Origin: Fibrobacterota bacterium
GTDB taxonomy: Bacteria > Fibrobacterota > Fibrobacteria > UBA11236
Reading direction: 5' to 3'
Length of the DNA stretch: 42,017 nt
Assembly: GCA_023249635.1 (NCBI GenBank)
Contig: JAHFCH010000028.1
Span: 1 to 42,017 of the forward strand
Shown here: positions 1,152 to 13,735 of the stretch, piece after piece
How the letters are laid out: each line of letters opens with the position of its first letter
Position numbering within the stretch: position 1 is the first letter of the stretch
Translations under genes and position numbers: made by a program
The notes under the pieces: model-generated
Databases searched by the model: none
What the model was told of the DNA's origin: nothing
The model's input: only the letters and a program-made list of their open reading frames with translations

Positions 1152-4100
1152 ATGGCCGTTCCCATCCAACCAGCCGATGCCAAGACCGTGAAGCGCCCCC
1201 GCGGCCCCATGGCCTTTCTCGCGGCGGTTTTGCTGCTCCTCGCATTCGGCCTCTGGTCCTGCAATACCAGTCCCGATGACGTCTACTCCGTTACCCTGAA
1301 GCTCGATTCGGCCCGTGTCGGGAAATTCGATAGCGTGCGCGTCGAGATCTACAACGGCCAGGCGCCCAAGGCCGGCGATACGACAAAGCCGGTGCAAACC
1401 GAAGTCATTCGCGTCAGCGCCGCCACCAAGGAAGTCACCATTACCTTGAACGCCAAGGTGAAAAAGGATTTCTCGGTCGTGGTCACGGGTTTCTCCGGTA
1501 ACGATATCACCTACCGCAACCTGCACAACGTGGAAGGATTCGTCAGTCCCGACACCAGCAAACATTCCATCCTGCTCATCACCAGCATCAAGGCGGAGGA
1601 TCTGGTTTTGAGCGTGGGGGAGACGCGCCTGCCGGTATTGACCATCACTCCCAATGATGCCGTGGACAAGAAGGTCAAATTCACCGTAGCCAATGAAGGC
1701 GTGGTCGCGGTTTCCAATGACAGCCTCAAAGGCGTCGCCGTGGGGAAGACCAAGGCCAAGGCCATTTCCCCGGACGGGGCCATCAGCATAGAATTCGGCG
1801 TCACCGTGGTGGCGGTGCGCGTTACCGCCGTGCAGGCCGATTCCGCCCTGGCCCTAAAGGTGGGGGACAGCGTGGCGGTCGCCGTGACGGTGGCCCCGGA
1901 TAACGCCACGGACAAGGAATACGCGCTGGTCTCCTTCGACTCTCTCGTAGCCCGCACCAGCGGACACTCCGTAGTGGCCGTAAAGGCCGGGGACACGAAA
2001 ATCGTGGTGGCCTCCCGGGACGGCGGCGCGGCGGACACCATTGCGCTTTCCGTGCGGCTGGCAGTCACCGGCCTGACCGCCAAGGCCCAGACCAAAGAGG
2101 TGGGGGACAAGTTCGTCCCAGTCCTGGAATTCGCTCCGGCGGATGCGACCAACAAGAAATACACCCTATCCACTCCCGACACCGCCGTCGTCCGCGTTTT
2201 CGGGGACAGCCTGGAGGCCAAGTCCGTAGGTACCGCCAAGGTTACGGCCGTCAGCGCGGACGGCTCCTTCCCGGCGCCTTTCGACGTCACCGTGGTCAAG
2301 AAGGTATTCCGGGTGAAGGGAATAACCGCCGCAGGGCTGCGCGGGTTGGTGGGGGATACGCTGGTCCCTAAACTCACGTTCGACCCGGCCAACGCCAGCG
2401 ATCAGGGTTTCACCTTGACCAGCCTGGACACGGCTTTTATCGGCATCGCGGGCACCAAGGTGGTGCTCAAGGCCTTGGGTACGGCCAAGGTTGAAATCGC
2501 CACGGTAGACGGCGGGTTGAAGACCAGCTTCGATGTCGCCATCGAAATCTCGAACTTCGTCCAGGACATCAAGCCCATCACCAGTTCCAAATGCGCCCCG
2601 TGCCACTTTCCGCCTACCTCGCCAAACTTCGATTGGACCGACTCCGCCCAACTCGTGTCCCGCGGGGTCAAGGCTCTTGATCGCATCACCCGCGACAGTG
2701 CGGTTGCCGGCAAGATGCCCATCAAAGGTGCCCCGAACGGCCCGCTCACCACCAGGGAACTTTCGGTTCTCTTTGGATGGCTCAAGCGTGTGGCGATCCC
2801 GGTGACCAGCGTGACTGTGGCGGACACCACCGTTCACCTGGGCGATACGTTGATGCCTCTGCTGGTATGGACGCCGGGTGACGCCTCTAACCGGGAATTC
2901 AACGTTACGGATTTCGATACCGCCGTAGTGGACACACTGCCGGCAACCATTGCCGGCCAAAAGCTGATCACGACCGGAACCGGAATTACCACCATCAAGC
3001 TCCAGACCAACGAGGGGTCGAAGAAACTCTCGTTCAAGGTCACGGTGCTTCCGCCCCTATTCCAGGAAAACGCGCTCCCGATCATCAAGCTGAAATGCGC
3101 GCCTTGCCACGTGCCCAGGTCGGAGTTCAATTGGCAGGATTCCGTGCTCTTGGAGGCCGATGGTTCCGAGGCCATCCGCCGCCTGGAACGCGACACCAGC
3201 CTCAAAGGCAGCATGCCCCAAGCCGGCGCGCCCAACGGCCCGTTGACGCAGCGCGAATTGAAAATCCTGCTGGCCTGGCTCAAGACCAAGGTGGTGCAGA
3301 TCAAATCGGTCACTGTGCCCGATCTCAAGATCCCGCTGGGGTCGCTAGCCGTCCCCTCCATCACCTACGATCCCGCCAACGCCTCAAACAAGGCCTACAC
3401 CCTGGCCCACGGCAGCGACACCGTTGTCCAGATAGTCGGGGATTCCATCCGGGGGCGCTCCCTGGGAACGGCCACGGTCACGGCCACATTCTTCGATGGT
3501 GGCCTGGAGAAATTCTTCCAGGTCACGGTGGAACCCGTGAAGGTGGATTCCGTGCGGGTCCGGGATACCGCCGGCACCGTGAGCGAAGCGGTGCGACCGG
3601 TGCCCCTCTTCTTCCCGGCCAACGCGACGAACCAGGGTTTCACCCTGAACCTGACCGGCGCCTCCGCCATCCTCAAGATCGACAGCGGCAAGATCATCAC
3701 CGGCCTGGCGGTAGGCAAGGACACCGTCGAGGTCGTCTCTACGGACGGCCTCAAGAAGGATTCCCTTGCGTTCACGGTGGGCCCCATCGTGCCCACCGCC
3801 ATCGCAGCGGCGGATACAAACGGATCCGGGACCCAGGTCGTGCCGGTACGGGTGACCTTCACCCCCGCCAACACCACCAACAGGGCCTATACCCTCAGCA
3901 TCCCCCCCGCCGATACCGGAATCGCCCAGGTCAAAGGCGACTCCATCCGGTGCAAGACCACCTTGGGGACCATCGCGGCGGTGACGGTAACCTCGGTCGC
4001 GAACCCCTCCATCAAGACCACCTTCAAGTTCACCGTGGGACCGGTAAAGGTGGATTCCATCAAGATGGCCCAGGCGAAATCCTACCTGGCCATCGGCTCC

Positions 4101-4595
4101 AAGGTTTCGCCCAAGATCACCTTCTTCCCGTTCAACGCCACGGATCAGACCTATACGCTCACGATGGCGGCCGCCAACACGGCAAACCTCACCGCGAACG
4201 TGGACGGATCGATCACCGGAGTGCATCTGGACAGCGCGATCGTCACGGTGAAATCCACCGACGGGAGCAAGACCGCTGCCTGGACCGTCGTGTCCACGCG
4301 GCCGGTCATGGGCTCGATCGTAGTGGGCGGAACGGTACGGGAAATCATCTGGAGGCGGTGCAGCGAGTGCCATAAGTCGGGAGTTACGTCGCCCCCCAAC
4401 TGGCAGGACTCCGTGATCGTGGTCTCACCGACCAAATCCAACCCGCCGGCCACGCCGCCGGCCTCGACCAATCCCGAGAAGATCATCAGCCGGGTATCGG
4501 TCGCAAAGGACATGCCGCCGAGCTACGCCACCGATAAGACTCCTTTGACCTCCTTGGAAATCAAGACCCTGGTGGATTGGCTCGGCATCAAATGA
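1152..4595 (+). CDS. Lipoprotein with about nine Ig-like (Big2-type) repeats and three cytochrome-c-like heme modules
   Basis: A protein of 1147 residues. The N-terminus has a hydrophobic segment ending GLWSC (Cys37), read as a lipoprotein signal. After a beta-rich region (about 40-146) come four Ig-like repeats of roughly 80 residues (about 147-465) with a VGD...PANATNK.YTL...GTA.V...DGG consensus. A module follows with C481-A-P-C-H485 and Met522. Then come one Ig-like repeat, a second module (C649-A-P-C-H653, Met688), four more repeats, and a third module (C1070-S-E-C-H1074, Met1121). Each module ends in a GPLT..E...L..WL-like helix, the pattern of short class I c-type cytochrome domains: CxxCH binds heme and the MP methionine is the likely distal ligand. 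Heme loading and a surface or periplasmic electron-transfer role are inference. ATG 1209 is an alternative start giving a tighter signal peptide. It sits alone between two terminators. Confidence 0.85.
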   Translation: MAVPIQPADAKTVKRPRGPMAFLAAVLLLLAFGLWSCNTSPDDVYSVTLKLDSARVGKFDSVRVEIYNGQAPKAGDTTKPVQTEVIRVSAATKEVTITLNAKVKKDFSVVVTGFSGNDITYRNLHNVEGFVSPDTSKHSILLITSIKAEDLVLSVGETRLPVLTITPNDAVDKKVKFTVANEGVVAVSNDSLKGVAVGKTKAKAISPDGAISIEFGVTVVAVRVTAVQADSALALKVGDSVAVAVTVAPDNATDKEYALVSFDSLVARTSGHSVVAVKAGDTKIVVASRDGGAADTIALSVRLAVTGLTAKAQTKEVGDKFVPVLEFAPADATNKKYTLSTPDTAVVRVFGDSLEAKSVGTAKVTAVSADGSFPAPFDVTVVKKVFRVKGITAAGLRGLVGDTLVPKLTFDPANASDQGFTLTSLDTAFIGIAGTKVVLKALGTAKVEIATVDGGLKTSFDVAIEISNFVQDIKPITSSKCAPCHFPPTSPNFDWTDSAQLVSRGVKALDRITRDSAVAGKMPIKGAPNGPLTTRELSVLFGWLKRVAIPVTSVTVADTTVHLGDTLMPLLVWTPGDASNREFNVTDFDTAVVDTLPATIAGQKLITTGTGITTIKLQTNEGSKKLSFKVTVLPPLFQENALPIIKLKCAPCHVPRSEFNWQDSVLLEADGSEAIRRLERDTSLKGSMPQAGAPNGPLTQRELKILLAWLKTKVVQIKSVTVPDLKIPLGSLAVPSITYDPANASNKAYTLAHGSDTVVQIVGDSIRGRSLGTATVTATFFDGGLEKFFQVTVEPVKVDSVRVRDTAGTVSEAVRPVPLFFPANATNQGFTLNLTGASAILKIDSGKIITGLAVGKDTVEVVSTDGLKKDSLAFTVGPIVPTAIAAADTNGSGTQVVPVRVTFTPANTTNRAYTLSIPPADTGIAQVKGDSIRCKTTLGTIAAVTVTSVANPSIKTTFKFTVGPVKVDSIKMAQAKSYLAIGSKVSPKITFFPFNATDQTYTLTMAAANTANLTANVDGSITGVHLDSAIVTVKSTDGSKTAAWTVVSTRPVMGSIVVGGTVREIIWRRCSECHKSGVTSPPNWQDSVIVVSPTKSNPPATPPASTNPEKIISRVSVAKDMPPSYATDKTPLTSLEIKTLVDWLGIK

Positions 4596-4690: not shown

Positions 4691-5515
4691 TTACAGCGAG
4701 TTGTACAAGCCTTCATCCAGGGTGAAGAACAATTCCAGGCGGAAGGACTGGGTTTCCGCCTGGTTCTGCCCGGCGAGCGAGAGCGGGAATTGCATCTCGG
4801 CGCTGATGATCTTGTTGAAGGTGTAATAAGCTCCCGGCGCGACCATCAGCAGATGTCCGTTCTTATCGGTGGGATCCCCGTCCTTCAATTGGTTGAAGAA
4901 GAATTCATAGGTCATACCCAGGTTCACCCCGAGGTATTGCCCTTTGGCGGTCATAGCCTTGGCGGGGATGGGCATCTCCGGTTTCACGAACAGGCGGATG
5001 TTGTCGATTTTGTCATTGTGGTTGTCCTCGGTATTGAACGAGTATGAGGCGTTGCTCATCAGGTTCACCCGCGGAAAGTTCCGGTTGTACATGCCTCCGA
5101 AGCTCATGGTCGCGAAGTTGCCCGCGTTCATGATGTCTTCGAATCCGATGGGAAGCGCAATGGCCAGATAACCGCCGATGCCCGTCAGGGGATCGCCGTA
5201 CTTGAGGGCGAGCTTGGGGCGATCCAAACCGGTATGGCCGACTTGGTCGACAATGAGGTAATCGACCTCCATGGAGCCTTCCAGCTTGTCGAGCAGCCCG
5301 AATTTGCCCTGCATGGGAATCGTTACCGGGTTGTTCTTGTTGGCATTGCCATCGCTTTCCCAGCCATCGTTGTAGTATCCGGAAACCGAGGTCCGCTCGA
5401 TGCCCATGTTTATCTGCATGACGCGGGCCGGCACGGGATTGTATTCATCCAGGGCGAAAACTGCCGTGGCCGTGCAAAATGCGGTCAGGGCGGAAATCTT
5501 GATCGAATGGGACAT
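4691..5515 (-). CDS. Predicted outer-membrane beta-barrel protein
   Basis: A protein of 274 residues. The first ~21 residues (MSHSIKISALTAFCTATAVFA) form a Sec signal peptide. The mature part alternates polar and aromatic or hydrophobic residues in short strands (for example GVNLGMTYEFFF and FRLELFFTL), as in 12-14-stranded barrels of the transporter or phenol-degradation-meta-pathway type. I cannot assign a substrate. The start has a Shine-Dalgarno AGGAG and a promoter about 50 bases upstream. The gene is divergent from an Rrf2-type regulator, which makes it a reasonable target of that regulator; this is inferred from position only. Confidence 0.7.
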   Translation of the reverse strand: MSHSIKISALTAFCTATAVFALDEYNPVPARVMQINMGIERTSVSGYYNDGWESDGNANKNNPVTIPMQGKFGLLDKLEGSMEVDYLIVDQVGHTGLDRPKLALKYGDPLTGIGGYLAIALPIGFEDIMNAGNFATMSFGGMYNRNFPRVNLMSNASYSFNTEDNHNDKIDNIRLFVKPEMPIPAKAMTAKGQYLGVNLGMTYEFFFNQLKDGDPTDKNGHLLMVAPGAYYTFNKIISAEMQFPLSLAGQNQAETQSFRLELFFTLDEGLYNSL

Positions 5516-11356: not shown

Positions 11357-13735
11357 GTGACAGTAAACAAGCGGGTAAATGCCGCGCCGGAACCCCCGAA
11401 AACCGGGCCCTGGCCGCATTATTTGGGAGCCTTGGGTCTCGCCGCGATTCTGTTCGCATTTTCCGGTTGCGGCGAAAAATCCGCGACCGGGACGGATGCG
11501 AAACCGGAAGCGAAAATCCCTTTTGATTCGGGCGTAGCGGGGCTGCCTGACGCCGCGCCTACCGGCATCCTGGAGGCCAAGGACGGCGATACCGTGCATC
11601 TGAAGGTGTCCTATGTGGCGAAATGGGTATCGGGCCGCAAGGTCCGGATGCTCGCCTACAACGGCTCCGTGCCGGGGCCCACCCTCAAAGTCCCCCAAGG
11701 CGCCGAGATCGTGCTGCTGTTGGAAAACGAAACCAATCTTCCCACTTCGCTGCATTCCCATGGGGTACGCCTGGATTACCGTAACGACGGAGTTCCGGGT
11801 ATCACCCAGGTTGCGACGGGAGCGGGTCAGGCCTTCGTCTATCATATCCGGTTTCCGGATGCGGGGATTTTCTGGTACCATCCGCATTACCGCGAAGATT
11901 ACCAGATGGAACTCGGCTTATACGGGAGCTACCTGGTTACGCCGAAGGATAGCACCTATTGGCCGCCCGTACACCGCGAAGTGGTGTTGATGTTAGACGA
12001 CGTAGCGTTGCGCGGCAACGTGCTGCAACCTTTCTACAGCAATCTTCCCGATCATTCCCTGATGGGTCGTTTCGGAAACGTGATGATGGTCAATGGGGAT
12101 ACCGCCTTCACCATGCATGTGAAACGCAACGAAGTCATCCGCTTTTACGTGGTGAACGCTTCGAACGCGCGCGTTTACAACCTGCAATATTCGCGGGATA
12201 TGGATCTCAACATCCTGGGGGCGGACAATGGCCGCTTCGAATACCCATCCAGCCGCGAGAACTATATCGTGGCGCCCTCGGAACGGGCCATCTTCCAGCT
12301 CTGGTTCAACGACGGTTTGGGCGATTACGATACCCTGGATCTATGGAACGCCAATCCGGCCGGTTTGAAGGTGCTTGCGCGCTTCGTGTACGATGCCGAT
12401 ACCGCCAAACCGGATCTCAGCGGAAGCATCACGTTGCGGCAGAGCCCGCAGGTGGCGGCGTCCATTGATCCCTTCCGCTCCGCTTTCGATAAGCTCCCGG
12501 ACGAAGAGATCCTGCTCACCGGGTTCATGGACATGTCCGCGCCATTGGCGAAAGCCGCGGCCGTTCAACATGATCCCGATCCTTCCAACCGCATGGGGGT
12601 GGAGTGGAGCGACAGCGTACATGGGCCGGCTATGTTGGCCATGAACGAATTGTCGAACGCCGGCAATATGCATTGGGTCATCCGGGACATGAAGACCGGA
12701 AAGGAGAACCACGACATCAATTGGGTTTTCCAGCGCGGCTCAAAGGTATTGATCCGGGTGCGGAACGATACCACCCTCTTCAGTTCCGATCCGAAGATCA
12801 TGAACCATCCCATGCCGCATCCCCTGCATTTCCATGGGCAGCGATTCCTGGTGGTGCGCGAGAATGGTAAAGCGCCCTTGGAGGGGCTGGCCTGGCGCGA
12901 CAGCTACCTCATCGGCCGCGGTTTCACGGTCGACTTGCTCCTGGACGCGGACAATCCCGGCGATTGGATGTTTCATTGCCATATCGCCGAACACCTGGAA
13001 GACGATATGATGGGCCACTTCCACGTCGTTGATTCGGTACTCGGGAAACCCGATTTCGAATGGACCTTGAGCCTGGGCTTGGCAGCGCGCCTCGATTCCC
13101 TTCGCCGCGACACCAGCGTCGCCATGGAAGTGCCGGCTACCGTTACCGGCTCGGTCAATGCCCGCCCCTCAGCGGCGCCCGCCACCACGGCTTCCGCCCT
13201 CGATGGTTCCCTGTACGTGATCCCTCCCGGAGGTTCCGTACCTATCGCGGCGGCCCTGGGGGCCTACGGAGCGTTCACGTTCCCGTCGACGGTATTGGGT
13301 ACGGCCGAGACCGGCGTGGTGAAATTCTTCCTGAAGTCGGCGGCCTACCGTCCGGTGCCGGATACCTTGCGCCTGACCTTGGATCGCCGCGGCCGCTTCG
13401 TCTGGAGCCTTGACCTGGACTTGGCCGGCGATACCGCATTCACGGCCCTGCGGACCGAGACCGGGGCCGTCAGCCATATGCAAGGAGAGGTTTCCGGCAA
13501 GGTGAACGGGTACGATGGGTCCAGCTTGCGTGATACGCTATATTTCCGGAATATGATCTATCCCGAATTGTTCGTGGACGCCCCGCTGGACGCGACCGGA
13601 AACTTCCGCTTCGATGCCGCCGACATCGTGGGCTCCCTGGACGGCCTGCATGACATGAAGATTTTCCTCAAGCCCCGCAGTGGTCAGCGTCAGTTCGATC
13701 CGGATACCCTGCGCTTGCACGTGAGCATTCCTTGA
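11357..13735 (+). CDS. Multicopper oxidase lipoprotein with C-terminal extension
   Basis: A protein of 792 residues from a GTG start. A hydrophobic segment ending FAFSGC suggests a lipoprotein. The four copper motifs of a three-cupredoxin oxidase are all present: HSHG (His133, His135), WYHPH (His175, His177), HPLHFHG (His488, 491, 493) and HCHIAEHLEDDM (His540, Cys541, His542, His546, with Met551 as type 1 axial ligand). It should reduce oxygen to water while oxidising a metal ion or organic donor; the donor cannot be told. Residues from about 575 to 792 are an extra beta-rich region of about 220 residues that ordinary CueO or laccase-type enzymes lack. Its TGA stop overlaps the likely TTG start of the next gene. 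Confidence 0.92.
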   Translation: MTVNKRVNAAPEPPKTGPWPHYLGALGLAAILFAFSGCGEKSATGTDAKPEAKIPFDSGVAGLPDAAPTGILEAKDGDTVHLKVSYVAKWVSGRKVRMLAYNGSVPGPTLKVPQGAEIVLLLENETNLPTSLHSHGVRLDYRNDGVPGITQVATGAGQAFVYHIRFPDAGIFWYHPHYREDYQMELGLYGSYLVTPKDSTYWPPVHREVVLMLDDVALRGNVLQPFYSNLPDHSLMGRFGNVMMVNGDTAFTMHVKRNEVIRFYVVNASNARVYNLQYSRDMDLNILGADNGRFEYPSSRENYIVAPSERAIFQLWFNDGLGDYDTLDLWNANPAGLKVLARFVYDADTAKPDLSGSITLRQSPQVAASIDPFRSAFDKLPDEEILLTGFMDMSAPLAKAAAVQHDPDPSNRMGVEWSDSVHGPAMLAMNELSNAGNMHWVIRDMKTGKENHDINWVFQRGSKVLIRVRNDTTLFSSDPKIMNHPMPHPLHFHGQRFLVVRENGKAPLEGLAWRDSYLIGRGFTVDLLLDADNPGDWMFHCHIAEHLEDDMMGHFHVVDSVLGKPDFEWTLSLGLAARLDSLRRDTSVAMEVPATVTGSVNARPSAAPATTASALDGSLYVIPPGGSVPIAAALGAYGAFTFPSTVLGTAETGVVKFFLKSAAYRPVPDTLRLTLDRRGRFVWSLDLDLAGDTAFTALRTETGAVSHMQGEVSGKVNGYDGSSLRDTLYFRNMIYPELFVDAPLDATGNFRFDAADIVGSLDGLHDMKIFLKPRSGQRQFDPDTLRLHVSIP

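Follow-up and report, generated by a model that had tools for sequence, protein, structure and literature searches.

PgcA of Geobacter sulfurreducens carries three tethered monohaem domains joined by flexible linkers, with a reach of up to 18 nm (PMC11520253). Its domains I and II recharge the divergent domain III, which is the terminal reductase, and in 2024 PgcA was put forward as the first example of proteins that move electrons by tethered diffusion (PMC11520253). Cytochrome c domains also occur in one polypeptide with Big_2 domains, in the PSCyt/PSD proteins of Planctomycetes and Verrucomicrobia (PMC5615132).

Here, we describe a 1147-aa predicted lipoprotein of a Fibrobacterota bacterium (UBA11236), encoded at 1152..4595 on the forward strand of the window, that is, the whole 42,017-nucleotide stretch of DNA that was analysed. 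All parts of the gene given below lie on this strand. PgcA is the closest characterised analogue of this protein. Both have a predicted lipid attachment site, and in both, repeats separate three monohaem domains with CxxCH, of which the first two are alike (53% identical in PgcA, 49% here) and the third is divergent (PMC11520253, PMC5732950). They also share His/Met ligation in domains I and II, predicted in our case, and haems that are nanometres apart, as judged here from domain size. However, the linkers of PgcA are disordered (PT)x repeats, whereas the spacers here are folded Ig-like domains and no (PT)x or (PA)x linkers are present. In addition, domain III of PgcA is bis-His while Met is conserved in all three modules here, and PgcA, whose type is extracellular and reduces Fe(III) oxides, belongs to a metal-respiring host while the genome studied here encodes oxygen respiration. 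PgcA chains were absent among the PDB sequence matches listed, and the likeness described here is one of design. The PSCyt/PSD proteins likewise combine cytochrome c domains with Big_2-type Ig domains, but the layout reported for them is not that of an alternating Ig/haem lipoprotein; PSCyt Pfam models gave no match to our protein up to an E value of 1, and no PSD domains were found. A search of open-licence papers yielded no report of Ig and cytochrome modules alternating in a lipoprotein. The preliminary description of this DNA had regarded the architecture as unfamiliar among characterised proteins, which holds for this version of it in the papers searched but overlooks PgcA as a characterised analogue. 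Cytochrome-Big_2 fusions and tethered haems were known already, and what appears to be new is the use of folded Ig spacers in a tethered-haem design.

Results

Architecture and predicted location of the lipoprotein

The protein consists of an N-terminal domain, four Ig-like repeats, cytochrome module 1, one Ig-like repeat, module 2, four further Ig-like repeats and module 3. It starts with a signal peptide whose lipobox, LWS-Cys37, ends at the predicted lipidation site (1152..1262), in agreement with the earlier prediction of a lipoprotein. The N-terminal beta domain (residues 38-142, 1263..1577) is a tenth beta domain, at the base of the stalk, without similarity to the Ig repeats; a Pfam search of residues 39-143 gave no match. 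Its mean identity between orthologues, 65%, is the highest of all segments. Scans for promoters and terminators gave signals no greater than in shuffled sequences.

In Escherichia coli, Asn at position +2 after the lipobox Cys leads to sorting to the outer membrane. Based on the Asn that follows Cys37, we infer that the protein is anchored in the outer membrane, from which the haem-bearing stalk could face either the periplasm or the outside. An acidic pair follows Cys37 in all orthologues (CNTSPDD, CNTNSPDD, CNTAPADE, CNTNSAEDE, CNTGNTDD). This pair only loosely recalls the lipoprotein export signal (LES) of Bacteroidota, in which a polar or basic residue and then acidic ones come directly after Cys+1, although it falls within positions +5 to +8, later than in the known signals, and LES is not established for this phylum.

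Ig-like repeats 1-4 (1578..2543) are of the Big_2 type (Pfam E value 2e-8), and the protein scores above the Big_2 gathering cut-off (34.5 bits compared to 22.8, in three stretches). Repeat 5 (2796..3047) alone separates the first haem from the second, and repeats 6-9 (3288..4298) together separate the second from the third. In line with the count of about nine repeats in the preliminary description, leave-one-out HMMs recovered all nine, with scores of 36-82 bits for the copies in the window compared to at most 7.7 for composition shuffles. Where no haem module interrupts, a P-x-N-A-T-x-K-like signature recurs about every 80 residues. An AlphaFold2 (AF2) model of the whole protein folded the Ig domains, with pLDDT mostly 60-86 for repeats 1-4, and Foldseek matched the Ig part to arrays in S-layer proteins (EA1, Sap), cadherin and contactin. 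The cytochrome modules in this model have a pLDDT of about 40 and its pTM is 0.28; because of these values we drew no haem-haem distances from it, and those given below come from domain size. A separate 1201-aa Ig-array lipoprotein without CxxCH is encoded at L081:8148-11750, and similar Ig-array proteins are found in congeners.

Three haem modules, probably class-I-like

Three CxxCH motifs are present in the protein, compared to 0.0004 expected from its composition. Module 1 (2550..2786) has CAPCH at residue 481, Met522 and WL543; module 2 (3048..3287) has CAPCH at 649, Met688 and WL709; and module 3, at the C-terminal tip (4299..4592), has CSECH at 1070, Met1121 and WL1143. The MP methionines lie 39-51 residues past the first Cys of each CxxCH, and a fourth MP, at residue 568, falls inside an Ig domain. 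The CxxCH positions, the spacing to the MP methionines and the WL-ended helices agree with the preliminary description, and both the HMMs and the conserved order of the parts support its placement of cytochrome-c-like modules between Ig-like repeats.

Among 15 module sequences, the two Cys and the His of CxxCH, one Trp, and the Met, Pro, Trp and Leu of the later motifs are invariant. Relatives of the module outside the genus are mainly stand-alone lipoproteins of about 110 aa from Chitinophagaceae. The group from Chitinophagaceae and relatives (L036, L038-L042) shares the homologous module, with KCAPCHxP, Met-Pro and a C-terminal Trp helix, but its members carry a single haem and no Ig domains. 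The residues C, C, H, M, P and W are common to modules and stand-alone cytochromes, and the Met is invariant across all 21 sequences. Modules 1 and 2 are closer to each other (49%) than to module 3 (27-30%). Between orthologues, mean identity is 63-64% for modules 1 and 2, 40-58% for the Ig repeats and 37% for module 3, which is the most divergent between species yet keeps its motifs. Leave-one-out HMMs gave 84 bits for each of modules 1 and 2, compared to at most 17.6 for shuffles that preserve CxxCH; module 3 scored lower, at 26 bits compared to 13.5, and one of its orthologues failed to beat its own shuffles.

None of the haem modules scored above a Pfam gathering cut-off. A profile of the 21 sequences nevertheless matched CcoP (1.4e-5) and cytochrome c6 (about 4e-4) in the PDB, and its Met-Pro aligns on the axial Met-Pro of both. 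The modules thus resemble class I cytochromes, such as cytochrome c6 and the C-terminal domain of CcoP, in CxxCH and in the aligned distal Met-Pro, but those proteins are soluble or oxidase subunits and have no Ig stalk. The AF2 model of module 1 (pLDDT 87.5) has helices at 5-16, 18-21, 34-39, 41-48 and 70-83, which lie on both sides of the haem motif and at the C-terminal end. Foldseek found no significant PDB match to the module model, the best being cytochrome c-554 (E value 4.1), and in a VIA structural comparison the best row was PgcA domain III, a weak match at Z 2.5 over 59 residues. Taken as sequence evidence, the case for cytochrome modules is good. They are probably class-I-like monohaem domains with His/Met ligation, and the third haem, too, looks His/Met rather than bis-His. 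The alignment to known axial Met residues also speaks, at the level of sequence, against the concern that the CxxCH His and the Met might be unable to bind the same haem.

Conservation of the gene and its locus

The gene is present in five of the six genomes of the genus, namely the window genome and four others whose orthologues are 48-53% identical over the full length. All five retain the three CxxCH and three MP motifs, with the modules in the same order. One orthologue (L014/L020, G003 contig 2) is interrupted by a frameshift near residue 917, which is either genuine or an artefact of assembly. The conserved locus comprises a thiolase, this gene, a convergent outer-membrane-like protein and an Rrf2 regulator, and continues with sucC, sucD and mdh where the contig reaches. 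The convergent protein (window 4691-5515) has no Pfam match and is kept at the locus in all six congeneric genomes. These neighbours also occur in the sixth genome, but there they flank a site without the gene, with a lipocalin-like lipoprotein on the opposite strand; a one-gene gain or loss, not missing sequence, accounts for this arrangement. Further along the window, at 11357-13735, a multicopper oxidase (Cu-oxidase_2, Cu-oxidase_3) with a lipobox-like leader is encoded.

Named matches in the genome collection were MAGs of Fibrobacteria/Fibrobacteres. The preliminary description had proposed a search for homologues with variable module number. None emerged: the 15-sequence module profile matched only this orthologue group among 126 Fibrobacteria genomes, with three modules in each member. 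Among 168 genomes of the phylum, matches to the region from module 1 through module 2 that lie outside the orthologue group cover the Ig part of the profile. The protein had no match in a plasmid collection.

Redox context in the genome

The c-type cytochrome maturation genes, whose absence the preliminary description would have counted against its interpretation, are present: ResB and CcsA-type genes of System II are adjacent on contig 329. The genome also encodes two haem-copper oxidases, one of the caa3 type (COX1, plus a COX2 fused to a cytochrome c) and one of the cbb3 type, in which CcoN and FixO are fused. It further contains a member of the diheme oxidoreductase family and several other cytochrome c proteins. 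This relative of Fibrobacter is predicted to be aerobic, in the sense that it encodes oxygen respiration.

The GSDH family (PF07995) is greatly expanded in the window genome (G000) and its five congeners, with 73 matching places in the former and 16-50 in the latter. The congener that lacks the gene has the fewest matches (16), while G004, which has the gene, has 20; a correlation would need more than six genomes. Another open reading frame of the window genome, of at least 2095 aa (L083:914-7198, contig 319) combines fn3 repeats, CBM6, a ricin-type lectin, a GSDH domain and two CxxCH, and 20 other GSDH frames sampled in the window genome contained no CxxCH. An LPMO was considered as a partner and dropped, as LPMO_10 occurs in only one of the six genomes of the genus, which is not the window genome.

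Discussion

CxxCH motifs in a predicted exported protein, together with maturation genes, make this protein a predicted c-type cytochrome. We favour, with moderate confidence, the interpretation that it is a lipid-anchored tri-haem cytochrome whose three independent monohaem domains probably resemble class I cytochromes, with His/Met ligation, are strung along an Ig stalk and act as a tethered carrier. System II would attach haem covalently to the three modules. Separated by one Ig domain, modules 1 and 2 would act as a proximal pair, with module 3 as a divergent tip where the stalk ends. A folded Ig domain is about 4 nm long. Judging from this size, a distance of at least 4 nm probably separates haems 1 and 2, and one of up to about 16 nm haems 2 and 3, while several tens of nm would lie between the tip and the lipid anchor. 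Electrons would pass as the domains move, or from one molecule to its neighbour, rather than by fixed tunnelling. Counting against this interpretation are the lack of a Pfam score above the cut-off for any haem module, the weak structural matches and the poor conservation of module 3 outside its motifs. In addition, the stretch of four Ig domains that separates haems 2 and 3 may be too stiff to let these haems meet within a single chain, and exchange between them may require bending of the stalk or contact of neighbouring molecules. The most likely, though unproven, task of such a tethered protein would be to carry electrons, linking the respiratory chain with an oxidoreductase that is either periplasmic or extracellular. 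None of the neighbouring genes, including those for the thiolase and the outer-membrane-like protein, is an evident redox partner.

The tethered carrier has to be weighed against the extended electron conduit of the preliminary description, in which rigid Ig spacers hold the haems in line and electrons move outward along a single fixed molecule at the surface. The alternation of haem modules with Ig domains, and an order and spacing conserved in all orthologues, speak for such a conduit. However, electron tunnelling is limited to about 15 Å (PMC11520253). With one folded Ig domain separating the first two haems and four separating the second from the third, ordinary Ig dimensions would place the haems well beyond that limit. 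The multihaem families tested also gave a single match in the genome, a Paired_CXXCH protein (L131:1440-4247, contig 96; 936-aa frame with eight CxxCH). The fixed conduit is therefore very unlikely. The sensor that was suggested alongside it, or a surface protein with a structural or adhesive role whose haem modules only report or bind, draws on the frequency of Ig/Big_2 arrays in adhesins and S-layer proteins, on the Foldseek matches to EA1, Sap and cadherins, and on the presence in the genus of an Ig-array lipoprotein without haem motifs. We consider this improbable, because no output or transmembrane signalling domain was found, the haem ligands are invariant in all copies, and a low-spin His/Met haem fits electron transfer better than ligand sensing. 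A role in haem storage or delivery, instead of electron transfer, is suggested by the genes beside two of the stand-alone relatives, as both L036 and L041 adjoin hemJ and hemN and L041 also adjoins hemH (ferrochelatase). Yet CxxCH and CcsA/ResB imply covalent haem, which is not released, and the full Met-containing motif is retained, making this the least probable of the explanations considered.

One concrete choice of partner for the tethered carrier is that the haems accept electrons from PQQ-type dehydrogenases of the GSDH family and pass them to the caa3 or cbb3 oxidase, with the stalk bridging the envelope. The GSDH expansion is the most suggestive partner lead that we have: matches are most numerous in the window genome and fewest in the congener without the gene, another protein joins a GSDH domain to CxxCH motifs, and two oxidases are available downstream. 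Nonetheless, the gene is not physically linked to any GSDH gene, G004 carries it with few GSDH matches in a comparison of only six genomes, and family membership is no proof of PQQ binding. We regard this particular partnership as a lead of low probability.

It is tempting, if speculative, to place the protein in a distinct class of Ig-spaced tethered carriers in an aerobic host, in which three haems spread over tens of nm would connect sugar dehydrogenases of the envelope or the extracellular space to terminal oxidases. The use of folded spacers by a conserved three-haem protein of an oxygen-respiring lineage would suggest that tethering had a separate origin and is not limited to metal reducers. 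As Ig domains can be counted and altered, such a protein could also provide a test of how the stiffness of the spacer affects electron transfer.
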